From a virus, in IMG/VR virus record IMGVR_UViG_3300044647_001496, positions 1-21,337 of that record: a stretch of DNA of 21,337 nt. One strand, 5' to 3'. This document shows positions 3-21,337 of this stretch, one piece after another. The notes under the pieces are model-generated. The model searched no databases, had not been told where the DNA came from, and saw only the letters and a program-made list of their open reading frames with translations. Position 1 is the stretch's first letter. Every line of letters starts with the position of its first letter. The position numbers were made by a program, and so were the translations under genes.

Positions 3-548
3 CACATCCCCAAGGACAAGCTGGCCGACATGGAGCGCGACAGCCGTGGGATGGCAGAGGTCCGCCGCGCCTTTATCTGCTGCCGCTACCTAGGCATGAC
101 GCCCAAGGAAGTCAGCTATGCCCGCAAGTCGTGGATTGAGGACCGCCCCGAAGGCAAGACCATGTGCATCCGCGAGCGCCCCGATGAGGAGTTCACCCTA
201 AAGACGGGGGGATGCCGCGAGCGCGACATTACCTTGGCGCCATGGATGGCCGACTATCTGCTGGGCGCCGATGACTACATGATCCCGCTCGGCACAGAGT
301 TCCTTCGCTACAACTTCATGCTCCGAAACTTCAACACATGGCTGCGGCAATACATCCCGAACCGCAAGGGGGCGGCCTACGAGCTACGCAAGCAAGCCGG
401 CAGCGATTGGCTGGAGGCGACGGGGTCACTCGTCCAAGTGCAATATCTTTTGGGGCACTCGTCCTATGTAACAACGCAACGCTGGTATGCCACATGGCAG
501 CGCGCCGTAGTCGTGCCAGAAAAATTCCAACAAGAACCAACAATATGA
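3..548 (+). CDS. int: Tyrosine recombinase (phage integrase), C-terminal part, cut by left edge
   Basis: The reading frame is open from base 3, so the N-terminal DNA-binding domains lie outside the window; the ATG at 30 is probably internal. What remains is the catalytic domain, which cuts and rejoins DNA at attachment sites through a phosphotyrosine link. Numbering from the Met at base 30, I see the beta-hairpin lysine (K58 in FTLKTGG), the box II arginine (YELR, R120, with Tyr where His is usual), the box III histidine (LLGHSS, H143) and the nucleophile (RWYA, Y153). Oddity: in the box I motif, usually of the form GLRxxE, the sequence reads GMTPKE, so the first catalytic arginine appears to be T24. 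Its stop codon overlaps the start of the next gene as ATGA. The family assignment is firm; whether the enzyme is active is uncertain. Confidence 0.88.
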   Translation, partial: HIPKDKLADMERDSRGMAEVRRAFICCRYLGMTPKEVSYARKSWIEDRPEGKTMCIRERPDEEFTLKTGGCRERDITLAPWMADYLLGADDYMIPLGTEFLRYNFMLRNFNTWLRQYIPNRKGAAYELRKQAGSDWLEATGSLVQVQYLLGHSSYVTTQRWYATWQRAVVVPEKFQQEPTI

Positions 549-1042: not shown

Positions 1043-4000
1043 TTAGCGCGGGGGCATTGATTGCCCGAGGGGAGAGTTGACTAGGTTGTTGCGCATGGAG
1101 CGCTGGCGGCGGGTCAGGCGGCGGATGTCGTGGCCGAACAGGGCAGACTTCACGGCGGCGTCCACGTCCTCAATGTCTTGGGCGAAGATCCGCACCTTCT
1201 CGGTGTCGGGCAGGCGAGCGTAGCGCGGGCTGGCCATGCGCCAATTCATCATGCTGGCCGTGTAGTTGCCCAAGTAATACTGGTAAGCGCTGATCTGCTC
1301 GTTCGTCAGGTCGATGTTCTGTCCGTTGATGGAGGCGCGGTTCTTTACCTGCTTGGGGAACTGGCTGGTCTCGCCGGTGGAATCCATGAGCCGCGCCGCT
1401 TCTTCCAAGACGGGGTTGGCTTTGACCCGAGAGGTCAGCGCCGGATTGAACAGCACATTGAACCAGTGCCATCCAACATACTGATACCGCTCCTGTGCCT
1501 GCCCCATGACATCAAGGCGGGGAGGGAACTGATCGGCAACGCCGGGGGTGTTGGCCGCGATCTGGTTGAACGCGCGCTGCACCGTGACCGGAACGGCCGA
1601 GGACTGGTTGGTTCCGCGCGTCTCTCTCAGCGTGTTATCGTAAAGGAGTTGGTTGGCTTGGCGGACAAGCTGCGGGACAAACATGGAAGGAATACCGGCG
1701 ACCGTTCTGGCCACGGCGCCGATCACGCTCTCCGGTCGGCGGGTGTCGAGCTGGTCGATAAAGCTGGAAAGACCAGACAGCAGCGGAAGATCCAGCAGTG
1801 ACTTGGCACCAGCCGCAAGACTGATGGCCGGCATGGCTGCCTTGGCCGCGAGTCCTTTCTTGATTCCGTTGCGGTCGTTCTGCTCAACCATCTTGGCCAA
1901 CTCGGCCCCGGCGGCAAACGTGATGGCGAGCGGTTGCGCCCAGTCGTAGGATAGGATCACATCGCCCTCGTCCGTTTTTTGCGGTGTGCCCCACGCCATG
2001 GTCGTAAGCAGCCGCTTGAGGGCAGTCACGTTGATCCGGTATTGTCCCATGCCCAGTGACCGGCGCATTGCCTCAACATCATCATCGTCCTCCTGACTGG
2101 CCGTGATGACACCCATGGCATACAGGTAATACCCCGCCGCATAGATTCCCGTTCCTCCGAGGGCTTTGGTAAATGCCTCGCCGAACTCCCTTGTGTCCAG
2201 TGGCTTGCCTGCCCTTTGGTTGCTGGCCTTCCAAAGAATGCCGTTCATGCCTTGGTGCAGGTTAATGATTAGCCCGAGGGGGGACCAACTGATGGCCGCG
2301 CGAGCGATGGCGCCGGGAACCTGAGTGAATGCCATGAGCGCCGTGCCGAATCCGAATTGCTCGGTTGGCTTGACGCCGGGGATGAAGTAACTCAGCAGCT
2401 TCGTGCTCATCCTGTTGAGCGATGAGCGCCACTTGGCGGCCTCCCTGCTGATCGTGTTAGCGTTTTGGTAGATGGCCCCGGCGGCATCGGCAATCGCACC
2501 CTCGATGTCCTCTGGCGTGTGTCGCCCCGTCCACTCGCCCATTTGCTTGGCTCGCGCCTCGCGGTTGGCCAGCGATGACTCCAGTGCAGACTTCCAGAAT
2601 GCGCGGTCAGGGCCGCCGAGGGCGATGGAGAGCGATGTCTCCAACATCCCCATGAACTTGCTGCTAAAGATGCGGCGCCCGACCTCCTTGGCATCGGCCA
2701 CTTCAAACTTGTTTTGCGTGGTGAGCTTGGATAGCAGGCGCAAATGGTCGATGCCGGCCGCAAGGTTCTCGCTGAATGGGGCCTGCGGGTTCTGCTTGGC
2801 GTTCCACTCAAAGCCCTTCTTTACATCGTAATACGGGGTGAGCAGATGCTTGAGTCGGCCCGACTTCACGCGGTCTCCGGTCTTGCCGTTGCTAAAGATG
2901 CCGGCCCGACCCGTGGCCACGTTGATGGCCGTGTCCTTACCGGCATTGGCCACGAACTGGATCACGTTGCCGCCGATGTTTCTGATCCAAGTCTTGGGCG
3001 AGAACAGCATCATTATGTAGCTGAACGCACGCACCTTCACCCAGAAGTCCACCGGCACAAGGCTATGGATCTCCTCAAAGATGCGACCGGCAATGACGAG
3101 CTGCATGTCTTGGTCGCCCTTGGCCTCTTTAAGCTGTGTGGTTAGGCCCTTCAGTCGCGCCCCAAGTTCCGGCGTCATGGTCGGCAACTTGGCGATAAGC
3201 GAAAGCTGCGCAATAAAGTCATCGTCCGGCATGCCTTCGCCGTTCAGCTTCTCAACCAGCTTGCTCCAAGACCTAATGAGCTTCTGCTCCTTCGGCTTGC
3301 GCTGCGTGGCGATGGACTTACGCGCCTCATCCATCACCTTGTAGAATTTGCTGGTGATGGCCGTTGCCAAGGCGCCGGCCTCGCTTTCGCTGATGCCGTT
3401 CTCGGTCAGTAGTTGTGTGATCTGCTTGGTCGCCTCTGCCTTGGTGGCCTTGCTGGTCAGGACAGAGCGGATGCCGACATTGGTGCGCTGCTTCTGCGTC
3501 TTGTCCTTAATGCGGCGCTTCAGCTTCTCTTGGATCTTCTCGCCGCCTTGGGTGCCGTTGATGATGGTGTCTTCAGCGACTGTCTTGCGGGTCGCCTTCA
3601 CTTCAGTCTCGGCGGACACAACGCTATCCTGCGCCGCGCGGATCTGGCCCTGCCTTTCCTCGGGCAACGTGTCGATGTATTGCTCGATGACTTGATTTGC
3701 GTAGAAGACGATGCCCTCCGGTGTCAGTCGGGCCAGCATGGCGAGCACGCTGATGGTCTGGCCGATGCTTGTGGCGCGGTTGGACATGATGCGAACAACG
3801 CGCGCCTGCCGCTGATGCTCTCCCATCGCTCCAAGTCTGGCCGCCAGCTCTAGGCCGATTCCAAAGTCAACAGGTGTGGGCGTCAGGCTGTCGGCAGCCA
3901 GATCAAGTATCCGCTGCTCGGCGGCATCAATCCCATTCTGGTTGATCCATTCCTTGGCCTGATCTGCCGTTCCTTCCAGCGTGATCGGAACATACTCACT

Positions 4001-6232
4001 GCCAAGCTCGGCCTTCGCCTCTTCCGTGATGGCATCAGACTTCTTCGCCTTCTCCTCAAACTGCCTCGGCTTGGCCTTCGGCCGCACATTGCCAACCGCC
4101 CCGGTCGTGTCGCTGTAAGGGCTGTCCTTGTAGGCTTGGACAATGCGATCAAAGACCTGCTTCAAGAACGAAGCGATGCCTTCCCCGAACTCCTTGACCA
4201 TCTGGCCGGCCCACTTGCCGAAGCTCATGCCTGCGCGGTAGATCGTCTTGCCGTATTCAAACAAGTCTTCGACGATGGAGAGATCAATCGCGCCCGATTG
4301 GGCGGTCATGTTTTTGATGCGGCGGCGGGAGCGTTTGGCGGGGGTGTCGGGCGTTGCGGCCGGCGATTGCGCCTGCGGCCCGTTGGCCTCCATTACATAG
4401 TCCTTGGCCGCCTCAACAGCGTTAGAAAAAGTTAAGCCTCGCGCAACAACAGCGTTGCCCTTGCCGCGCACAGACCAAACCGAAGCCTTTCTCTCTGGAG
4501 ATTTCCCTGTCGTAAAATCAATGCGGGCCTCAACGGTCGCGCGGAGCTTGTCTGTGTCTGATAGGCGATTCCACTTCTCGGGTGCGGTCACGCTTGGCGA
4601 CTCAACAACAACGCGAGACTCGCCATCCGTCCCGTTGGGGCGCTTGCGCCTGCTGATGGACGGCTTGCCAACGACAATTTCATCTCGGGTAAAGACATTG
4701 TCGATTGCCGCCGGCGCCGGTTGCGCTGCGGGTTGGGCTTTCCCAAACACATGAAACTCCGCAGCCTGCTCGCCGCCCAAGTCGGTGCCTGACTCATAGC
4801 GGATGCCCTCAAAGCCGCGCGCCTGCAAGACGGTCTTGGCTTCGGCATCAAACTCTGGGGCGAACGGTTCGCTTTTCAGCTCAAGCTCGTCCTTCAGCGT
4901 GGGCTTGTCGGTGGCAGTGTAAAGGTTTTGCGGCAACGTGTCCGGCGTGGCCTCGTCAATGGTGCCTTCGGTTCCTGTCTGCGCGGCGTAGTTCTCGGCA
5001 ACCTCGCGGCTCTCGGACCAGAACTGGTCACCGCTTGAATAGTCAACGTCGGGCGATACGCCACGGAATATCTTTGGTGTCGCCACCGGCGGCTCCGTCA
5101 CAATCGTCTCCCCCGGCATCTCGACAACCTCAAAGTCATCGGGGTTGATGGCGGGTTCGGCGGCAGGGGCTGCTTCCTCCACGGGCGCGGCGGCCGTGGT
5201 CGCATCGCCAAAAGTTTCTTGCACATCGACCGCATCGGCGGCGGGTGGGGGAGTAAATTGTTGGACTTGGATGGGCGGCAGGTTGCGGTCATCCATCGGC
5301 TGGGCCGCCATACCTTCGGCCGCTCCGACAGGGGCGCCCGCCATGAACCCAGACAAGCCCTCCATCGTTGCCGATGATGCCACTCCACGCATAGTCGGGA
5401 CGGCATAGCCCTCACGCTGCAAGGCAATGTTGGGAGCCATGGCTTCCTGTCCGCCTTGCAATGCTTCGGGAATGCCTTCGGACACGCCAGTCTTGACCGC
5501 GCCGGCCACCACGCCACCCGTCACGCGGCCGCCGGACTTGCTGATGGCATTGCCAAGGATCTTCTCGGCGCCGAACAAAGCGTCCGCCGCGCCAAGGCCG
5601 GCCGCGAGCAAGAGCTGGTCGATGTTCTGCCCGCCGTAGCTCTGGGCCTCCAGCGCCACACGGTCGGCTTCTTCCTCACTCTTGCCGGACTGCAATAGGA
5701 AATTCTTGGTGTCTTGGTAGATGCTGTCCTTGACGATACCCGTGTTCATTCCGGCGCCAGCGCCAGCTTGCACCGCCTGCACGCCTTTGGCGCCAAGACC
5801 GAGCGCCCTCCCGGCAACGCCCGTCGCCACAATGGGAGCCATGGTGCCGAGCGATTGCGCGGCAGTATCCAGAGGGGCAACGGCGAAGGCCCGCGCGCCG
5901 GCCTTGACCTGCTCCCACACGCCCTTGTCCTGCGCCTCCTGCATGATGCGCGCGACTTCTTGCTGGTCGGCTTGGGCTTCGGGCGAAAGGGATTGGCGGT
6001 AGAACTCTTGGTAGCTGGCCAACTCCTGCGACACAGGGTTGTTCGCCCCGAACAGATCGGTCATGCCCTTTAGGCCGGTGATGACGCCACCCGCCGCGCT
6101 GACGGGAAGGTCGGCCGCCTGACGCCAAAAGCCGCTGCCCTCGGCTGGCTGGATTTCAATATCGTCCAGCGTCAACCCCGCCAAGGGATCTAGCTCAATA
6201 TCCCCCAGCGTGATGTCATCAAGTGTTGCCAT
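1043..6232 (-). CDS. Very large polyvalent phage protein with ADP-ribosyltransferase-like segment
   Basis: A 1729-aa protein, last gene of the late operon; probably packaged in the virion and ejected with the DNA, as for similarly placed giant proteins in other short-tailed phages (inference). In order: an acidic N-terminus with repeated LDDI motifs (4-28); Ala/Gly-rich helices (40-310); a Pro/Ala linker (320-385); an ART-like segment (about 386-499) with IFRG, FWSESREVAENYA and GFEGIRYESG; a basic linker (525-645); a helical block (about 740-960) with the NRATSIGQ and LTPEGIVFYAN motifs of phage polyvalent proteins; a C-terminal helical region starting near MLFSPKTWIRNIGGN (1075-1089), resembling the large polyvalent-protein-associated domains, perhaps LPD38; and a charged end. 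The start overlaps the upstream stop as TAATG. No Shine-Dalgarno sequence is seen, so translation is probably coupled. Confidence 0.85.
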   Translation of the reverse strand: MATLDDITLGDIELDPLAGLTLDDIEIQPAEGSGFWRQAADLPVSAAGGVITGLKGMTDLFGANNPVSQELASYQEFYRQSLSPEAQADQQEVARIMQEAQDKGVWEQVKAGARAFAVAPLDTAAQSLGTMAPIVATGVAGRALGLGAKGVQAVQAGAGAGMNTGIVKDSIYQDTKNFLLQSGKSEEEADRVALEAQSYGGQNIDQLLLAAGLGAADALFGAEKILGNAISKSGGRVTGGVVAGAVKTGVSEGIPEALQGGQEAMAPNIALQREGYAVPTMRGVASSATMEGLSGFMAGAPVGAAEGMAAQPMDDRNLPPIQVQQFTPPPAADAVDVQETFGDATTAAAPVEEAAPAAEPAINPDDFEVVEMPGETIVTEPPVATPKIFRGVSPDVDYSSGDQFWSESREVAENYAAQTGTEGTIDEATPDTLPQNLYTATDKPTLKDELELKSEPFAPEFDAEAKTVLQARGFEGIRYESGTDLGGEQAAEFHVFGKAQPAAQPAPAAIDNVFTRDEIVVGKPSISRRKRPNGTDGESRVVVESPSVTAPEKWNRLSDTDKLRATVEARIDFTTGKSPERKASVWSVRGKGNAVVARGLTFSNAVEAAKDYVMEANGPQAQSPAATPDTPAKRSRRRIKNMTAQSGAIDLSIVEDLFEYGKTIYRAGMSFGKWAGQMVKEFGEGIASFLKQVFDRIVQAYKDSPYSDTTGAVGNVRPKAKPRQFEEKAKKSDAITEEAKAELGSEYVPITLEGTADQAKEWINQNGIDAAEQRILDLAADSLTPTPVDFGIGLELAARLGAMGEHQRQARVVRIMSNRATSIGQTISVLAMLARLTPEGIVFYANQVIEQYIDTLPEERQGQIRAAQDSVVSAETEVKATRKTVAEDTIINGTQGGEKIQEKLKRRIKDKTQKQRTNVGIRSVLTSKATKAEATKQITQLLTENGISESEAGALATAITSKFYKVMDEARKSIATQRKPKEQKLIRSWSKLVEKLNGEGMPDDDFIAQLSLIAKLPTMTPELGARLKGLTTQLKEAKGDQDMQLVIAGRIFEEIHSLVPVDFWVKVRAFSYIMMLFSPKTWIRNIGGNVIQFVANAGKDTAINVATGRAGIFSNGKTGDRVKSGRLKHLLTPYYDVKKGFEWNAKQNPQAPFSENLAAGIDHLRLLSKLTTQNKFEVADAKEVGRRIFSSKFMGMLETSLSIALGGPDRAFWKSALESSLANREARAKQMGEWTGRHTPEDIEGAIADAAGAIYQNANTISREAAKWRSSLNRMSTKLLSYFIPGVKPTEQFGFGTALMAFTQVPGAIARAAISWSPLGLIINLHQGMNGILWKASNQRAGKPLDTREFGEAFTKALGGTGIYAAGYYLYAMGVITASQEDDDDVEAMRRSLGMGQYRINVTALKRLLTTMAWGTPQKTDEGDVILSYDWAQPLAITFAAGAELAKMVEQNDRNGIKKGLAAKAAMPAISLAAGAKSLLDLPLLSGLSSFIDQLDTRRPESVIGAVARTVAGIPSMFVPQLVRQANQLLYDNTLRETRGTNQSSAVPVTVQRAFNQIAANTPGVADQFPPRLDVMGQAQERYQYVGWHWFNVLFNPALTSRVKANPVLEEAARLMDSTGETSQFPKQVKNRASINGQNIDLTNEQISAYQYYLGNYTASMMNWRMASPRYARLPDTEKVRIFAQDIEDVDAAVKSALFGHDIRRLTRRQRSMRNNLVNSPLGQSMPPR

Positions 6233-6765
6233 TAAGGAGTGATTACAAGAACCCCGCCAAGTTTAGGGACGCGGTGCGTGCCAACGGGCATGTTAGTTCC
6301 AAAGCGTTGCGAAGCCTCTGCCTGAGTCATGGTGTATGACGGAGTCGGAGCGGGTTGCGGGGTGGGTGCCGCAGTCGGCGCATTGGTCGTCGCCATTCCG
6401 CCACCGGCGAGCGGGGCGGGGGCACCGGCTTCGGCCGCGTAAGGGTCTGCCGCATAGCCTCGCAACGGCTCACCCCTCACCACTTGCCCCTGCGCATTGG
6501 TAGTCATGGGAGCAATGGCAACCGCATTGGTCCCGTCATAGCGGGCATACATGCCTTGTTGCGTGTTCAGAATCTCGGGGTCAAAGCGGTTGTCTATGCT
6601 TTTCTTGATGTAGTATTCGTAAGCCTTTTTATCGGCCTCAAATTCTTCTGGAGACGGCTTGTATCCCGGCTGGCGCCCAAGGAACATGCGCCCAAAGGTT
6701 CGCAAGTCCATGGCTCCAGCAGGAGCTGAAGGCGCGTTGGTTGGTGCGTTTGTTGGCTGAGACAT
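6232..6765 (-). CDS. Pro/Ala-rich virion-associated protein, unknown function
   Basis: A 177-aa protein if it starts at the ATG at 6765 (MSQPTNAPTNAP). An earlier in-frame ATG at 6816 would add a 17-residue basic tail lying inside the upstream gene and is less likely. It has low-complexity Pro/Ala/Thr stretches at both ends (TNAPTNAPSAPAG near the start, TAAPTPQPAPTPS further on) around a charged middle (PSPEEFEADKKAYEYYIKKS). The end, SQRFGTNMPVGTHRVPKLGGVLVITP, is hydrophobic and strand-like. No known family is recognised. It begins 5 bases after the upstream stop and its own stop overlaps the giant gene's start (TAATG), so it is probably made with, and may work with, the internal virion proteins. 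Confidence 0.7.
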   Translation of the reverse strand: MSQPTNAPTNAPSAPAGAMDLRTFGRMFLGRQPGYKPSPEEFEADKKAYEYYIKKSIDNRFDPEILNTQQGMYARYDGTNAVAIAPMTTNAQGQVVRGEPLRGYAADPYAAEAGAPAPLAGGGMATTNAPTAAPTPQPAPTPSYTMTQAEASQRFGTNMPVGTHRVPKLGGVLVITP

Positions 6766-7217: not shown

Positions 7218-8096
7218 TTAAGCCGCCACGCGGCCGTCGATGATTCTTGCGATGGGGCGACCGGCCACATCTTCTGACTTGTGCGCAAAGCCCAACTCGG
7301 GCATCGCGTGATCCTCGTAAGGCAGGTGCGCTGAGATGTTGTTCACCTGCGCCTGATGCTTGGGGCACCAGACCGTGGCCGGCGCCTTGCGACTCATGCA
7401 CGCTGTGCAAATGTGGCCGTAGTCTGCATTGCGCGACTTGTCAGCGAGGTGATGCCAGCGGCCATCGCTGTCCTTGCCGTAGCGAGTCTCGTCATTCGGC
7501 ACGCCCTCGCGCTCCAAGTATTCCCATACATCCGCATCGGTCCAGTCCCGCATTGGGAAAAGCTGCGTTGGAGCGTCCGGTGTCCGCCGCACGTCCATGG
7601 CCAGCGGCACCTGCCCCTTGATCGGGTCAACGTCCGCCGACTTCTGCCCATGGAAACATGCGTCCCACGGCCAAGCAAACGAGCCGAGAGGGCGCGACAG
7701 GGCCTCCATACCACAACGCCATGGCTTACCCTCCACCGGCGCCTGTGTGCCCACGGCCACGATCAGCGCCGTGTGTTGGCCCCATTGCTGGTATTTTAGA
7801 AAGTCCACCTGATGGCTGCCATCCGGCGCCGTGCCATCGGTCAATGCAATGCGCCCCGGCGCGTAGTCGTAGACATCCAAGTCCCATGCGCGGGTCAGCA
7901 CATCGGCCAACTCGTAGCGGTCGCGGAACCACGGTTCGCGGTATTGCACGCATGGCAGCTTCACCCCGACCTTGTGGACGAGCAGGTGCAGCATTGCCGT
8001 TGAGTCCTTGCCACCGCTCCAAAGCACGCAGGGATTGCGGAACTCGGAGATCCAGCGTTCCGCCTTGCGGCAAGTGTCTGTGATTAGTCGCTCCAT
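7218..8096 (-). CDS. PAPS reductase family PP-loop enzyme (CysH/DndC-like)
   Basis: A 292-aa N-type ATP pyrophosphatase fold protein. The PP-loop is SGGKDS at 27-32, directly after the first strand (CVLW). Further family marks are QYREPWFRDRYELAD (51-65), WDACFHGQKSADVDP (144-158) and FPMRDWTDADVWEYL (180-194). Such enzymes activate or reduce sulfur compounds (CysH, CysD) or insert sulfur into nucleic acid (DndC, TtcA-like). The C-terminal ECGLH motif of assimilatory CysH is absent. Instead there is C230-x2-C233-x10-C244, with C128 and C147 nearby, which could bind a metal or Fe-S cluster. It starts by TAATG overlap with the 320-aa virion-type gene, so it is expressed late with structural genes. 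The family is firm; the reaction is unknown. Confidence 0.85.
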   Translation of the reverse strand: MERLITDTCRKAERWISEFRNPCVLWSGGKDSTAMLHLLVHKVGVKLPCVQYREPWFRDRYELADVLTRAWDLDVYDYAPGRIALTDGTAPDGSHQVDFLKYQQWGQHTALIVAVGTQAPVEGKPWRCGMEALSRPLGSFAWPWDACFHGQKSADVDPIKGQVPLAMDVRRTPDAPTQLFPMRDWTDADVWEYLEREGVPNDETRYGKDSDGRWHHLADKSRNADYGHICTACMSRKAPATVWCPKHQAQVNNISAHLPYEDHAMPELGFAHKSEDVAGRPIARIIDGRVAA

Positions 8097-15069: not shown

Positions 15070-15593
15070 TAGCTGTTCAACACTTGCAGCGCTTCGCTGC
15101 TCGCGTCCTCAAATGTGTATGGCGAACCGTTCCAGTCTGAACGCTTGTCTTCTGGCGCAGTAACTCCCGCGACAATCATGCCATCGAGCCATCCCTGAAC
15201 AGCGGCGAGCTTGGGCGAGGTCTTTTGCGCGGCGTCGAGTTGCAGTTTGAGATAAAGCAGGGTTGTCGGGCGGTTGCCGTCAAACTTTTGCTGATCGACC
15301 CATTCGGTCGCCGTGTAAGTAGGCACATACGGCACAGGCGGCGGGGGAATCACATAGCTCTCGTCCACAGGCAACGCCGCTTCGATCATGCCCTTGACCG
15401 TGGCCTCGTCCAAGTCTTCCAGTTCGGGGCCGTTCGCTTCATAGATCGTCAGCTTGGTCGGCCAGCCAATTTCGTTGACCGTGACCGCACCTTCCTCGCT
15501 GCGCGAAAGCTGGTAGGAAAAGCCGTGCCATGTTTTGCCGTCGATCTGGCGCGGCTGGTCGAGGAGGACTGTGTAGATTTCTTCGCTGTTCAT
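15069..15593 (-). CDS. Hypothetical protein downstream of the long fibre (174 aa)
   Basis: It is taken to start at the ATG at 15593 (MNSEEIYTVLLDQ), since the in-frame TTG at 15602 lies inside the last codons of the fibre gene. The N-terminal half is beta-rich (TWHGFSYQLSRSEEG, TKLTIYEANG). A proline run follows (VIPPPPVPYVP), then a helical C-terminal half (TLLYLKLQLDAAQ, LAAVQGWLDGMIVAG). It has no signal peptide or membrane segment. It starts within a couple of bases of the fibre stop and overlaps the adaptor-like gene by TAATG. The place right after a fibre suggests an assembly chaperone or fibre cap; no family is recognised. Confidence 0.65.
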   Translation of the reverse strand: MNSEEIYTVLLDQPRQIDGKTWHGFSYQLSRSEEGAVTVNEIGWPTKLTIYEANGPELEDLDEATVKGMIEAALPVDESYVIPPPPVPYVPTYTATEWVDQQKFDGNRPTTLLYLKLQLDAAQKTSPKLAAVQGWLDGMIVAGVTAPEDKRSDWNGSPYTFEDASSEALQVLNS

Positions 15594-15594
15594 A

Positions 15595-18500
15595 TTAAGC
15601 AACCACTCGGTAAATCGCGCACACGCGCCAGTTCACGGTTTCAGATGCCGCGCCAGTGACGCGCACACGCAGGGATTCCACTGAAGCCGTATCGTCGGCA
15701 TCGATAGTAAAAGTCCAAGTCGGGGAGCCTTCGCTTTGATCGGTTCCGATAGTCTGCACCGCGCCGATCAGTGCCGTGTTGTTTGATCCATCGCGGCGGA
15801 TAGCGACCCAACGGCGCGCTGAAAGGAATTTTGTGTTGTCCGTGCGGCGGGCAATCAGAAAAATGTCCGCAATGACGGCGGTGTTTGCCGCGATGACCAT
15901 GCGGTTCGTGGCCGTGGCGTCCAGATTGAGTTCGACGTTGGCGGCGTCAGAAGTTGTTTGCCCACCCCAATACACGGCATTGAATGGCCGAGTCGCCAAC
16001 ATCCCGCGCATATTGGCAATCGCGTTTAGCCCGACACAGCGAATAGCCGTTGCGATAGCGCCAGTGTCGTTGGCATCGTAGCTGCCGATTGCCACGGCGT
16101 CTTGCGCGTTAGCTGTGACTGCGTTGCCGACTGCAATAGATGCAAGGCCAGTTGCTCCTGCTTCCGTTCCGATTGCCGTGGCTGATTGACCGGCGTTTGT
16201 GGCTTGGCCGACTGCGGTTGCGGAGGTTGTGTTTGCTCGCGCCAGACGTCCAACCGCCACACTGTTGCTTCCTGATGCGCTGCTTCGTGTTCCAATGGCA
16301 ATGGAGTCATTGCCACTTGCCACTTCAGTGCTGGCGTCACGCGACATGGCAATGTTGATGGCCCGCAATCCACGGGCATCGCCGCCGACTGCGGTTCCGT
16401 CTGGCTTCGGCCCGACAATAAAGGGAGCAACATTGCGTGTGGTGATGACCACCGCCACGATCCGCTCCACGGTTGCCGCCGTGTAGTTGGTCGTGACATC
16501 CACCGCCGCGCCCGACACCGTGGTGGCAACTTTGAACACGTTTGTCGCGGAATCGCGGACAAAATAGCGGATGTTGGCTGTCAGTCCTGCGCCGCCCGTC
16601 AGACTTGTAAAGACAACTTGGTCGCCGTTGGAGAAGGTGTGGCCCGTGGCCGTCACGAAATCATCCGATGCCGCGATAGTTGCGCTGAAAGAAACGGCGC
16701 GTGGGGCAAGGGTTATGTTGCCTTGAGTTGTGGCGGTGTAGTCATCAATGACCAAATCGCTGGACTGCGCCGTCGAGCCGCCCGTGCCATCGGCACGAAG
16801 CAAAGAATTGTCAGTCGCGCCTGTGGAGCCGCCGATGCCGCCGCCCGAAGCCGCCGAAAACGTCACACCGCCCGATCCGTTGGCCGTCAGCACATGACCA
16901 TTCGTCGCGCCCGTAGCGGCGAGGGAGGTAAGTTCGTGGCCGTGGTTTCCGAGGGCGACAGTCGTGCTGGTCGTGCCCGTTGGGATGCGCGCCACGTCCA
17001 AGGTTCCCGAGGTGATGGCCGAGGCTGCGTGGGCGTGCGAAGCCGCCGCGAAATCGGTAGTCGCTGCTGCTGCCGCCGTGCCGAGGGTCGGGCGTCCCGA
17101 GAGGTCGCCGTAAGCTCCCGTGGTTGCAACGGTCGCCAGCCCCGTGATGGTCGTGGCGGCTTGGGTGCCTGTGTGTGTTGCGCGGTCGCGTAGCTGTGCG
17201 TCACTGGCGTTGGCGGTTGCGCCGTCTGCCACGTTGATGAGCGTGCGGACTTGGCTCGCCGTCAGGTCTTCCGCGTTCCCCGTTCCCGCCGTAGCGCGGC
17301 CCTTGAGTGTGCTGCTGGCTACTTGTGCGAGCTTGGCATTAGTGACGGCGTTGTTGGCAATCGTGGTCGCGCCATCGCCCGCCGAGGTTACATCGCCCGT
17401 GTGGTTTGGGTGGGTGTAATTGTTTGCGCCACTGGAAATGCCGTCGAGCTTGGTCTTGTCTGCCGTAGAAAGAAATCCAGCGACAGACTGTGTGGCATCC
17501 GAGTGCGTGTGCGAGCTTGCCGCCGCGCCCACATCGGAGGGCGTGCCGTAGGTGAGCTTGTTGCTGGTGTTGTTCCAATAGACGATCCGATCCGCGCCCG
17601 CATCGTCGGCAGATATTGCGCCCGAAGAGACGGAAAGAATGTCTGCGGCGGTTGATTGAATGGAAACGGTATCACCGCCACCACCACCCGTTGCAGCCTC
17701 CCATGCCGATCCCCCAGCCCCGTCAGACGTAAGGACGTAGCCGTCTGCTGCGGCTCCGCTTCCGAATTGATCGGCGTTGTCGCTTGTGAGGGCGATTTTC
17801 CCGCTCGCATCGGGGATTTCTAAAGTCCTTGTCGTTTCCGTTGTGACGCCCGAAACATCGAACTCAACTTTCTTCGTCTCGTCCGCTGTATCGCTCAAAC
17901 CAACGTAGTCTCCGTCACACCACAAAGCGCCATTTTCAAAATCGCCTTGGTTGCTGACATTCGGCCCGCCCGCTGAAAATTTGCCGCCAGCACCAACCTT
18001 GAAATTGGGTAAGCTGGTAACGTTTGTGCCAGCATCATCCGACACATCGCTGCGGAATTGGCCCTCCTCTCCTTGAAAATAGAACAAGGTAGCCGCGCCA
18101 GAGTTGCGTCTTTTAAAATTGCTACCGTTATAATAAACATTGTCGCCAATCCATGCGTTGTTGAGCGCGTATCCTTGAAACTCCAATGTGCCGAGCCTTA
18201 GGCTGCTGTCGTTTTGGTTTGGCGTGAGGGTGAGTTTGTTAAAGGTCGGTTCGTCCGTGGTGCTGAGGTCTTGGTCGTAAATCGGATCACTTCCAATAGT
18301 AGAAGCAACCCCGCCCGACAGCGTAAGCTCATCGCCGTTATCGGGAACTTGTGCGCCATCGCCGCTGTCTAATGAGGCTTGGTTTAACGGATTGGCCGAG
18401 TTCCAAGCGGCCAGCACGGTATCCACATCGTCCACGCCATCAAAGGTCAGCGTGATGCTGTTGCCTGCCGTGCCTGCGGTGTTTGCCGTGATGGTTACTT

Positions 18501-19017
18501 CTTCGGAAAAAGATTCATTGTCGCCGATGCCCGTGTAGCTGGCGGCAATGGCGGGCGTGCCTGCGAGGTGACTGGCGGCGTGCGCCGTGGGGGTTCGAGA
18601 GTCGCCTGCGTCGTCCAGCGTGATGTTTTTGTTGGGGACGGTGATTACGCGGGTTTGGTTTGCGCCGACTTGGGCGTCTACGTTGAACTTTACGTTTTTC
18701 GTGGAGTCCACGTCTCCGTAGAGCGTGAACTGCGCATCGCTGAACACATCCGGCATGGTGCCAGCGTAGGTGTAATCAGCGTCCCTGCTGCTGCCGCCGG
18801 TGGCTGTGCGAATATAAATGCCCGCCTGCTTGCGGCTCACCGGCCAGACGCCGCTGGCTGTGCGGACGAGCCATGCACTGTTGAGAGCGGCCGAGCCGTC
18901 TAGCGGCAGGTCGGCGTAGGTGGCAACCTCGCCGTCAATATAGGACGCGCCGCCGCCGCCTCCACCGCTTCCGGTGAAGTCGAAGTTTCCTGTCAGCGGG
19001 TTGAATTTGATAGCCAT
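15595..19017 (-). CDS. Long tail fibre with YadA-like head repeats (1140 aa)
   Basis: The main host-contact protein candidate. The N-terminus (MAIKFNPLTGNFDF, then six glycines) and ASYIDGEVATYADLP with SAWLVRTASGVWPV are typical virion-anchoring fibre starts. The shaft is Ala/Thr/Gly-rich with His-x-His motifs (SHTHS near 504, SHAHA near 660, NHGHE near 692) and fibre words such as TKLDGISSGAN and AYGDLSGRPTL. A beta module near 780-860 resembles one in the nozzle. Residues about 900-980 are about six 14-residue repeats (SIAIG, SVAVG, SIAVG, AVAIG) like the left-handed beta-roll of YadA heads, followed by a C-terminal jelly-roll-like tip. It is probably a homotrimer. It starts by TAATG overlap with the 69-aa gene. 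Confidence 0.88.
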   Translation of the reverse strand: MAIKFNPLTGNFDFTGSGGGGGGASYIDGEVATYADLPLDGSAALNSAWLVRTASGVWPVSRKQAGIYIRTATGGSSRDADYTYAGTMPDVFSDAQFTLYGDVDSTKNVKFNVDAQVGANQTRVITVPNKNITLDDAGDSRTPTAHAASHLAGTPAIAASYTGIGDNESFSEEVTITANTAGTAGNSITLTFDGVDDVDTVLAAWNSANPLNQASLDSGDGAQVPDNGDELTLSGGVASTIGSDPIYDQDLSTTDEPTFNKLTLTPNQNDSSLRLGTLEFQGYALNNAWIGDNVYYNGSNFKRRNSGAATLFYFQGEEGQFRSDVSDDAGTNVTSLPNFKVGAGGKFSAGGPNVSNQGDFENGALWCDGDYVGLSDTADETKKVEFDVSGVTTETTRTLEIPDASGKIALTSDNADQFGSGAAADGYVLTSDGAGGSAWEAATGGGGGDTVSIQSTAADILSVSSGAISADDAGADRIVYWNNTSNKLTYGTPSDVGAAASSHTHSDATQSVAGFLSTADKTKLDGISSGANNYTHPNHTGDVTSAGDGATTIANNAVTNAKLAQVASSTLKGRATAGTGNAEDLTASQVRTLINVADGATANASDAQLRDRATHTGTQAATTITGLATVATTGAYGDLSGRPTLGTAAAAATTDFAAASHAHAASAITSGTLDVARIPTGTTSTTVALGNHGHELTSLAATGATNGHVLTANGSGGVTFSAASGGGIGGSTGATDNSLLRADGTGGSTAQSSDLVIDDYTATTQGNITLAPRAVSFSATIAASDDFVTATGHTFSNGDQVVFTSLTGGAGLTANIRYFVRDSATNVFKVATTVSGAAVDVTTNYTAATVERIVAVVITTRNVAPFIVGPKPDGTAVGGDARGLRAINIAMSRDASTEVASGNDSIAIGTRSSASGSNSVAVGRLARANTTSATAVGQATNAGQSATAIGTEAGATGLASIAVGNAVTANAQDAVAIGSYDANDTGAIATAIRCVGLNAIANMRGMLATRPFNAVYWGGQTTSDAANVELNLDATATNRMVIAANTAVIADIFLIARRTDNTKFLSARRWVAIRRDGSNNTALIGAVQTIGTDQSEGSPTWTFTIDADDTASVESLRVRVTGAASETVNWRVCAIYRVVA

Positions 19018-19229: not shown

Positions 19230-21337
19230 TTAGGCGGCGGGTTGGGCGGTCATGCCGAGTTGCTGCTCTTGCGCCATCTTTTGCAGCGCTGGTTGGGCGC
19301 CGGTGCGGCCGATGACGGCGTTTTGCTGCTGTTGCAACTGGAATTGGAATGCCTGCGCGCGGGCGTCGATCATGCTGCGGAAGATTTCGTCCTGCTGGTA
19401 GCGCTGTTGGACGGCGGGGTTGGACTGAATGATCTGCTGCAAGGTTTGCAGTCTTACCTGCGCGTTTTGTCCGCCTTCTTTGAGCGGCGGCTCGGTGCCT
19501 GCGGCGATTTTTGCGAAGGCGGTTTGTTCGTCTTCCTGTTCGGCGGCGGTGGCTTGGCCGATGTCTTGGACCAAGAGGCCGGCCAAGTTCGGGTCAACGG
19601 CTTGGAACATGTATTTGACCAAGCCGGCACGGTCGATGACACCGAAGCTGTCGAGCGGGACGAGCACTTTGGCGAGGTAGTCGAGCTTTGCGCCGAGCGC
19701 TTCGTTGTCGAGGAGGCGCGCGTCAAACTCAGCGGTAATGTCGAAGCGGCCCCGGATGTCTTGAGGGCTTGCGTTGAATGCCAACTGGGCATTGCCGGTG
19801 ATGCGCGCGACCTCCTCGGGAGTCATGTATTGCTGCGCCAGCGCCATGGTCTGCGCGATGCAGAGCTTCATGTCGATCAACCAAGAGTCGATTAGCTCCT
19901 GCGTGTGGAGCATGTAGCGCTGCTGCGGGACGGCATCGCTGATGCGGCCAAAGTAATTGTCCACGTCCGCACGGGTGGCGGCTTCTACCTCGATGCTGCC
20001 CATGTCGGGGCGAGGGGGATTCATCCACTCGATCTCGCCGGGGCGGCGTTCGGGGATCTGCATGCCGGGGCCGAGGACGAGGTCAAACTTGCCCCGGTTG
20101 GCCGGCACCTTGACGGGCGGGAGGATGCTGATGGATGCGCGGTCGGAGCGGAAGTCGCGCTGGATCTTGATTTCTTCCTGCGCCGTCTGCACCAGCTCGG
20201 GGATGCCACGGCTCTCTAGCAGAGGGCGGGTAGCGCGCTCGCGGGGGAGTTCGATGAATGGATATTGCCCGTGCGCGTAGGGCAGCAACTCATGCACTGC
20301 GACCTTGTCGGTGACATGGTAGCTAACCACGGAGCGGGTGACGCGAATGGCGTTGGTCTTGGGGTCGTTCTCCTTGCGGTAGACATGCCATATTTCGCAC
20401 ATGTCGCGCAGTTGCTCGTAGAGGAACTGATCGGTGCGGTGGATGTTGAGCGAGATGCGTTTGAGCTGGCCCTTGTGCTGCGAGGCGGCTTCGATCCATT
20501 CCTCGTCCCAGCCCTCGACTGCGCCGCGCTCGCGCAACTCCACTTCTGTGAGCAATTCTCTGCGGGCAACGAACGCGGCGCGCTGAAGGCTGAAGGTCTG
20601 AATGGGGAAGATGACATCCTCCCATGCTTCAAGCGCGGTCCACACCGGCTTGCTCTCAAAGACATAAGGCTCCTCCCACTGGACAAGGCCCTTGTCGCGG
20701 AACTCGCGGACTTTGGACACCTTGCCCAACTCAGGGATGATCTGCCCCAAGAGTTCGGCGGCGGTCTCCTCTTGCAGCGGGTCCATGACCACTTCCAGAA
20801 GGGCGGCGAGGTTGGGGTCTTGGCTCTGCTCCAACATCATTTGCGCGTCTTCGATGCTGAAAGACTTGATCTCGGTGCGGGTGTTCTGCACCCAGTCCAC
20901 GGCCATAACCGCCAGCCCGTAGGTCTCGCGGAACTGGGCGGCGAGTTTCACTTCGCGGCGAAGATCGTCCAGACAGTGCTGGAACATGAGCCATTTCATC
21001 ACGGCTTCGGCGGCGGCTCGCTTGTCCGCATCCATGGACTCCACCGGCTGGACTTGCACGCGCGACTTGAAGAAGGCGTTGCAAAGGAGAGCCGTGTTGT
21101 CCGAAATGATATTGTCCGCAAGCCGAACGCGAACGTCCGAGGCACCAGACCATGGCCACGGCTGCTTGCCTTGGGCGCCGGACCACTTGCGACCATCTTC
21201 GCTTTGCCCCGGCCAGATACAGAACCGCGTATTCCAGTTGCGCAGTTTGCGCTGAACATATTGGCTGCCATCGGCGTCCGCTTGGTCGATCTCGTAGAGC
21301 ATCGCCGTGATGTCCTCTGGCTTGGGTGCTTTAATCA
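19230..21337 (-). CDS. Portal protein (head-tail connector), start at or beyond right edge
   Basis: About 700 aa, the size of podovirus portals. The frame is open through the right edge: upstream of the ATG at 21302 it reads IKAPKPEDITA, and the last two bases on the - strand are TG, so the true start may use the next base outside the window. Portals form the dodecameric ring through which DNA enters and leaves the capsid. Seen here: FCIWPGQSEDGRKW (27-40 from the Met at 21302), a motif I associate with this portal group; VRLADNIISDNTALLCNAFF; a large alpha/beta core with WEDVIFPIQTFSLQRA and GQYPFIELPRERATRPL; RDFRSDRASISILPPVKVP; and a Gln-rich C-terminal helical tail (FQFQLQQQQNAV). Portal identity is likely. 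Confidence 0.82.
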   Translation of the reverse strand, partial: IKAPKPEDITAMLYEIDQADADGSQYVQRKLRNWNTRFCIWPGQSEDGRKWSGAQGKQPWPWSGASDVRVRLADNIISDNTALLCNAFFKSRVQVQPVESMDADKRAAAEAVMKWLMFQHCLDDLRREVKLAAQFRETYGLAVMAVDWVQNTRTEIKSFSIEDAQMMLEQSQDPNLAALLEVVMDPLQEETAAELLGQIIPELGKVSKVREFRDKGLVQWEEPYVFESKPVWTALEAWEDVIFPIQTFSLQRAAFVARRELLTEVELRERGAVEGWDEEWIEAASQHKGQLKRISLNIHRTDQFLYEQLRDMCEIWHVYRKENDPKTNAIRVTRSVVSYHVTDKVAVHELLPYAHGQYPFIELPRERATRPLLESRGIPELVQTAQEEIKIQRDFRSDRASISILPPVKVPANRGKFDLVLGPGMQIPERRPGEIEWMNPPRPDMGSIEVEAATRADVDNYFGRISDAVPQQRYMLHTQELIDSWLIDMKLCIAQTMALAQQYMTPEEVARITGNAQLAFNASPQDIRGRFDITAEFDARLLDNEALGAKLDYLAKVLVPLDSFGVIDRAGLVKYMFQAVDPNLAGLLVQDIGQATAAEQEDEQTAFAKIAAGTEPPLKEGGQNAQVRLQTLQQIIQSNPAVQQRYQQDEIFRSMIDARAQAFQFQLQQQQNAVIGRTGAQPALQKMAQEQQLGMTAQPAA

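Follow-up and report, generated by a model that had tools for sequence, protein, structure and literature searches.

A variable YadA-type beta-roll followed by a conserved tip domain in a putative phage tail fibre

The window, in itself an entire 21,337-base record of a viral contig from environmental DNA, encodes a fibre protein of 1140 amino acids in a single reading frame, in which a left-handed beta-roll of the kind found in bacterial YadA-type adhesin heads lies near the C-terminal end and is followed by a tip domain (Table 1). Among relatives the tip is conserved and the roll is variable, and the two are recombined with respect to each other. In order from the N terminus, the chain comprises a conserved part presumed to serve attachment, a shaft of mosaic make-up, the YadA-type beta-roll, and a conserved C-terminal beta tip. 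We give an even chance to the reading that this is a distal fibre module in which the roll is part of the binding surface and the tip is a cap.

The YadA-type beta-roll

Six in-phase xxA[IV]G motifs are present at fibre residues 905 to 974, spaced by 13 to 14 residues (starting at 905, SIAIG; 919, SVAVG; 933, ATAVG; 946, ATAIG; 960, SIAVG; and 974, AVAIG). The approximately six SIAIG-type repeats that a sequence-only reading had noted at 16063 to 16320 are located at residues ~900 to 985 of the minus-strand product. A run of six motifs at a spacing of 13 to 15 was found in none of 20,000 composition-preserving shuffles of residues 861 to 990 and in none of 5,000 shuffles of the whole protein, the shuffles giving runs of three at most. 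The YadA/Hep_Hag head profile proposed as a check on that reading, Pfam YadA_head (PF05658), matches the fibre with an E value of 1e-6 and 29.4 bits, above the curated cut-off of 25, and the family is found as three stretches in a DNA-level search of the window. It is also present, at E ≤0.1, in 12 of the 14 roll-plus-tip sequences of alignment A1 (the window and 13 relatives). Searching PDB sequences with phmmer retrieved YadA (1p9h, E = 8e-4) and 3s6l (E = 0.011). A roll-plus-tip profile of 34 sequences (the window and relatives) matches BpaC (7o23, E = 2e-20), BoaA (3s6l, 1.7e-11), and YadA (1p9h, 5.3e-10), as well as adhesin-head chains of CbpF, AtaA, UspA1, and EibD and one chain of ice-binding type (E 0.017).

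Fibre residues 863 to 1140 were modeled with AlphaFold2 as a single chain from alignment A3, which has 34 rows (33 relatives and the window, with L043 and L053 omitted as near-duplicates). This model has a mean pLDDT of 74.3, with block means of 82 to 93 over fibre residues 893 to 972, and supersedes an earlier 14-sequence model with a mean of 66.6. When a structural aligner was applied to Foldseek's top 1000 chains, the best superposition among them was with the BoaA head 3s6l (Z 18.2, rmsd 1.5 over 120 residues, 34% identity), and the heads of EibD, AtaA, and CbpF came next. In the order of Foldseek E values several phage tailspikes stand above BoaA, but with a TM score of at most 0.3 and an rmsd above 13; BoaA itself gives an rmsd of 3.4 and a TM score of 0.64 by target length in plain Foldseek. 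The beta-roll suggested by the repeats is thus predicted with confidence as a left-handed roll that superposes, as a single chain, on the BoaA head, and its placement near the C-terminal end of a tail-fibre-like protein agrees with both the Pfam position and the model. Neither outcome that would have refuted the sequence-only reading, a predicted structure lacking the roll or a head profile without a match, was obtained in these single-chain and profile analyses. As modeled, the roll is real and has the same fold as bacterial adhesin heads, and it is somewhat longer than the repeat span first noted. By analogy with these heads, the fibre chains probably pack three-fold into a stiff prism.

A, S, G, and T abound in this stretch, as would be expected if low-complexity Ala/Ser/Gly sequence merely imitated the motif. 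This is next to impossible, given the absence of the motif run from the 20,000 shuffles, the Pfam score above the cut-off, and a confident model that superposes on a real head at a Z of 18.2; chance or low complexity is ruled out as the source of the motifs.

The fibre has a repeat of ~14 residues and a left-handed beta-roll in common with the adhesin heads BoaA (3s6l), BpaC (7o23), YadA (1p9h), EibD (2xqh), AtaA (3wp8), and CbpF (9gh5). Close superposition on the roll was obtained for BoaA, EibD, AtaA, and CbpF, and a profile match for all six. Trimeric autotransporter adhesins carry the head outermost, at their N-terminal end. The polarity of the window fibre is reversed with respect to these adhesins, with the roll near the C terminus and followed by the tip. 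Pfam gives YadA_head alone at E ≤1, so that the YadA membrane anchor was not found, and the C terminus of the fibre is occupied by the tip domain. Pfam likewise gave no match to a YadA stalk or neck family in the fibre or among the families of the 14 A1 sequences, and no export-signal family is among the fibre's Pfam matches. A trimeric autotransporter adhesin (type Vc) was rejected because the YadA anchor is lacking, and the protein is instead a phage fibre with that fold.

Table 1. Features of the fibre gene and its neighbors in the window
Feature	Positions	Strand	Basis
Tail fibre ORF	15595..19017	-	PF05658 match; directly 3' of the connector/portal-like gene and a 69-aa gene
N-terminal ~148 residues, presumed virion attachment	18575..19017	-	DNA common with relatives sharing the portal-like gene
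Shaft, residues ~149-862, mosaic	16432..18574	-	DNA comparison with relatives; FtbO likeness
Lead-in to the roll, residues 863-890, FIVGPKPDGTAVGGDARG...	16348..16431	-	Alignments A1 and A3
YadA-type left-handed beta-roll, residues ~885-990	16048..16365	-	Motifs, Pfam, profile, predicted structure
C-terminal tip domain, residues ~1005-1140	15598..16005	-	Model fold resembling that of T4 gp9 in its C-terminal part
Connector/portal-like protein, 690 aa, upstream neighbor	19230..21302	-	Unnamed Phage C75C1 protein, 27% identity over 96%
Downstream gene, 177 aa	15069..15602	-	First ~93 codons shared alongside the tip in relatives
Head-closure/tail accessory-like protein, 666 aa	10163..12163	-	C75C1 "head closure" and "phage stabilization protein" matches

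Conserved tip and variable roll

The tip (model residues 149 to 278, fibre residues 1011 to 1140) superposes on the C-terminal part of T4 gp9 (1qex) with a Z of 11.2 and an rmsd of 2.6 over 109 residues and on a phage baseplate chain (9f4a, chain LA) with a Z of 9.4. The fold is alike, but sequence identity to gp9-type structures is only 9 to 10% (9% for 1qex), and gp9 is absent from the matches of the 34-sequence profile. The title of its PDB entry describes gp9 as connecting the long fibres with the tail. Weaker fold matches were obtained to the C termini of phage tailspikes and to TNF-like or C1q-like domains (Z 4.6 to 4.9 for the latter), where matches at a Z below 8 may reflect a shared arrangement only. 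The confidence of the tip model is moderate (block pLDDT of about 52 to 86), and the tip gave no match in Pfam, PHROG, or NCBIfam.

Scans of viral contigs retrieved 32 loci with the whole fibre and 38 with the roll-plus-tip alignment, several contigs being in both. A total of 57 tip-bearing ORFs were found, and the tips fall into two distantly related classes. The variation tables comprise 35 relatives and the window; dropped before counting were L004, L036, and L005 (the window's strain), L073 (a fragment), identical sequences, and L027 and L028, for which the script found no start anchor. Compared with the window, all 29 relatives of its tip class are 60 to 94% identical in the tip and 27 to 39% in the roll, a tip conservation that is overstated, as the patterns by which most of the relatives were retrieved had been derived from the tip and so favor conserved tips. 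The roll is 73 to 140 residues long in relatives and 115 in the window. Among the 630 pairs of the 36 rows, some of which are near-duplicates, tip DNA is at least 80% identical in 146, with roll DNA below 60% in 134 of these and at least 80% in 11. The reverse pattern is seen in L052/L053 (roll DNA 100%, tip 88.6%) and L050/L056 (97.5% and 85.9%), and such near-identical rolls with more diverged tips point to exchange both ways. On these alignments, roll and tip recombine separately.

Against the three nearest relatives (L037, L038, and L040), the tip has a dN of 0.045 to 0.049 and a dS of 0.79 to 0.97, values that indicate strong purifying selection, whereas the dN of the roll is 0.81 to 0.92. 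Close roll pairs have dN/dS ratios of 0.17 to 0.39, with one pair at 0.77 on six changes, and thus do not point to diversifying selection there. The variability of the roll resembles replacement and drift rather than measurable positive selection.

Among the fetched relatives beyond the window's strain, there was no DNA-level match to fibre residues ~731 to 991 or to shaft residues ~551 to 631, the latter being as unshared in DNA as the roll. Up to 28 of 79 distinct DNA matches extend over the tip and the initial ~93 codons of the gene that follows; these matches were drawn from the loci of the whole-fibre, roll-plus-tip, and second prokaryote scans and two reference records. Similarity ends at residues ~1000 to 1015 (8 HSPs), at ~1065 to 1073 (7), and, where the gene itself ends, at ~1140 (7). 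For L071/L043, the point from which the tip region begins to differ lies within the tip. Clean breakpoints precisely at the roll-tip junction are therefore borne out only in part. In the 177-aa gene, the part whose DNA is shared with the tip in many relatives spans 15324 to 15602 (minus strand), and the remainder is mostly unshared. Pfam and PHROG gave no match for this gene, the product of which is possibly a partner or assembly factor of the tip.

At the other end of the fibre, both the N-terminal DNA and the upstream portal-like gene are shared with the window in L014, L021, and L022, and similarity ends cluster at 18575 to 18600, the edge of the N-terminal part. These ~148 residues would be the attachment part. 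Within the shaft, residues 493 to 538 (17404 to 17541, minus strand) are similar to the repeats of FtbO (PDB entry 9j1l); a literature search by that name yielded nothing useful.

Role and origin of the roll

A roll of this type requires only repeated small and aliphatic residues, so its outer loops and the number of coils are free to change. Phages exchange and vary it as a cassette, and its outer surface most probably shares in the contact with the bacterial surface. The conserved tip, traveling with the start of the next gene, would fold and cap the trimer, and it may also bind. Against a role of the roll in binding stands the lack of detectable diversifying selection in close pairs, as a result of which the roll could be a freely varying spacer. 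Phage fibres usually bind at their C terminus. The tip lies at the extreme C terminus of the fibre and has the weak fold matches to TNF-like and C1q-like lectin or globular domains, and these points, together with the variable length of a roll showing no sign of diversifying selection, argue for the tip as the sole receptor binder and the roll as a stiff spacer of adjustable length. This competing explanation is a serious one, though we judge it rather less probable than an even chance. The tip is conserved among otherwise mosaic fibres. Such conservation would be odd in a domain that sets specificity, unless one receptor serves all of these phages. The reading that we prefer is that the roll contributes to the binding surface and the tip acts as a cap. 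A bolder form of it appears doubtful to us, namely, that throughout this widespread fibre family host recognition resides in the adhesin-type roll instead of the tip, the roll being an exchangeable cassette in the form of a trimeric prism of reverse polarity, variable in length and surface, held between the lead-in and a cap that is co-inherited with the start of the next gene.

The sequence-only reading had also suggested either an exchange of adhesin modules between host and phage or a convergent trimer design, and an exchange found no support here. When 84,980 prokaryote species genomes were scanned twice with tip-region patterns, none of 34 pattern matches in the first scan and 1 of 135 in the second (L074) was a relative, and no bacterial adhesin was recovered; a transfer of the roll alone lies outside the reach of such patterns. 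That the roll was lately acquired from a bacterial trimeric autotransporter adhesin would fit the profile matches to many adhesin heads and the 34% identity to BoaA over the superposed residues, yet it is very improbable in view of these two scans, of a roll-plus-tip arrangement common to many phages, and of the lack of anchor and stalk families among the matches. These tip-pattern scans thus lend no support to a recent exchange with bacterial adhesins, and either old common descent or convergence may account for the likeness.

YadA domains in phage fibres have been in print since at least 2014, when a YadA domain was described at the C terminus of the fibre of a marine phage, a region that under-recruits metagenome reads (PMC3909814). 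Excerpts of other reports describe a cyanophage YadA-domain structural protein detected by mass spectrometry (PMC9146016), a 2235-residue YadA-domain virion protein of cyanophage S-TIM4 that was mutated in all evolved populations in host adaptation (PMC6224464), pelagimyophages with YadA domains listed among the host-recognition domains of their structural operon (PMC7029224), and algal viruses with genes of YadA type (PMC12906663). The low read recruitment of the marine fibre and the mutations in S-TIM4 lend support to the reading preferred here. As in the window, the marine phage and cyanophage proteins (PMC3909814, PMC9146016, and PMC6224464) carry a YadA-type domain, variable or mutated, in a fibre or virion protein; they belong to other phage groups, and a tip like that of the window is not mentioned in these excerpts. 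No description of the roll-plus-tip pair was found in searches of open-licence literature. The adhesin head fold is a recurring building block of phage fibres, varied and swapped independently of the tip, and if the roll binds hosts, it would offer a simple repeat scaffold for studying changes of phage specificity.

Gene neighborhood and relatives

The fibre gene sits in a phage structural module, beside connector and tail genes. The 690-aa upstream protein is presumably the portal, and further downstream of the fibre are genes for an amidase endolysin, the head-closure-like protein, and a second tail-fibre-like protein. In L022 the terminase gene is followed by genes for a scaffold-like protein, the major head protein (E 1.4e-39), a connector-like protein (identified by homology to the 690-aa gene of the window), and the fibre, in that order, with a tail spike further on. 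The window appears to be a short-tailed phage, which the gene context fits. In L013, the roll and tip are behind genes for tape-measure-like and major-tail-like proteins, which indicates that the roll-plus-tip module is not restricted to one tail type.

With a second-class relative (L014) as the query, cyanophage Cy-LDV1 alone was matched in the reference phage collection. Its g10 "putative tail fiber protein" (BK059895) matches the L014 roll-plus-tip over 96% of the length with 31% identity; it differs from the window in its second-class tip and its gene position. Queried with the window's own roll-plus-tip region, the reference phages again gave Cy-LDV1, at a nonsignificant E of 0.3. The related gene of Cy-LDV1 is flanked by those for head-tail joining and the tail terminator, a similar position was read in L074, and in the window the fibre comes after the connector-like gene, all of which would suit a fibre located on the capsid or neck. 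We consider this location quite unlikely, as the L013 relative comes after the tape-measure-like and major-tail-like genes, "tail fibre" is the name given by the Cy-LDV1 depositors, and the related contig L022 has a tail spike gene nearby. The fibre is thus more plausibly placed on the tail.

A control scan from the window's roll gave 20 loci, comprising 2 of the same strain, 11 with either tip class or an intermediate form, and 7 with other or incomplete C termini; outside the window's own strain, the matches of this roll-based scan had at most 57% identity. In BFVD, 104 viral fold matches were obtained at E ≤0.001, some already named YadA-like head proteins. Proteins of uncultured Caudovirales (A0A6J5LQZ0, A0A6J5L0H3, and others) match the fold over roll and tip, the best ones with 18 to 25% identity, and giant-virus proteins (Clandestinovirus and Marseillevirus) are also among the BFVD fold matches to the roll-bearing model. 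L074 is a Planctomycetota MAG contig, whose roll-plus-tip-like protein (4834 to 6477, plus strand) matches phrog_25468, a family of unknown function, and has neighboring ORFs read as phage head and tail genes. In L071, a second, shorter protein with a roll and a diverged tip (5420 to 6580, plus strand) stands right behind the main fibre, an arrangement that looks like a duplication of the module.

Elsewhere in the window, a short ORF at 30 to 548 (plus strand) matches tyrosine integrases in their C-terminal part (phrog_1, E 1.7e-10; Pfam below the cut-off), which suggests a temperate or once temperate phage. A phosphoadenosine phosphosulfate reductase-type domain (PF01507 and phrog_424) is encoded at 7218 to 8096 (minus strand), likely by an auxiliary gene. 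A 1729-aa ORF at 1043 to 6232 (minus strand), with no Pfam match, is weakly similar to phrog_588 (tail fibre/host specificity; E 4.5e-5).
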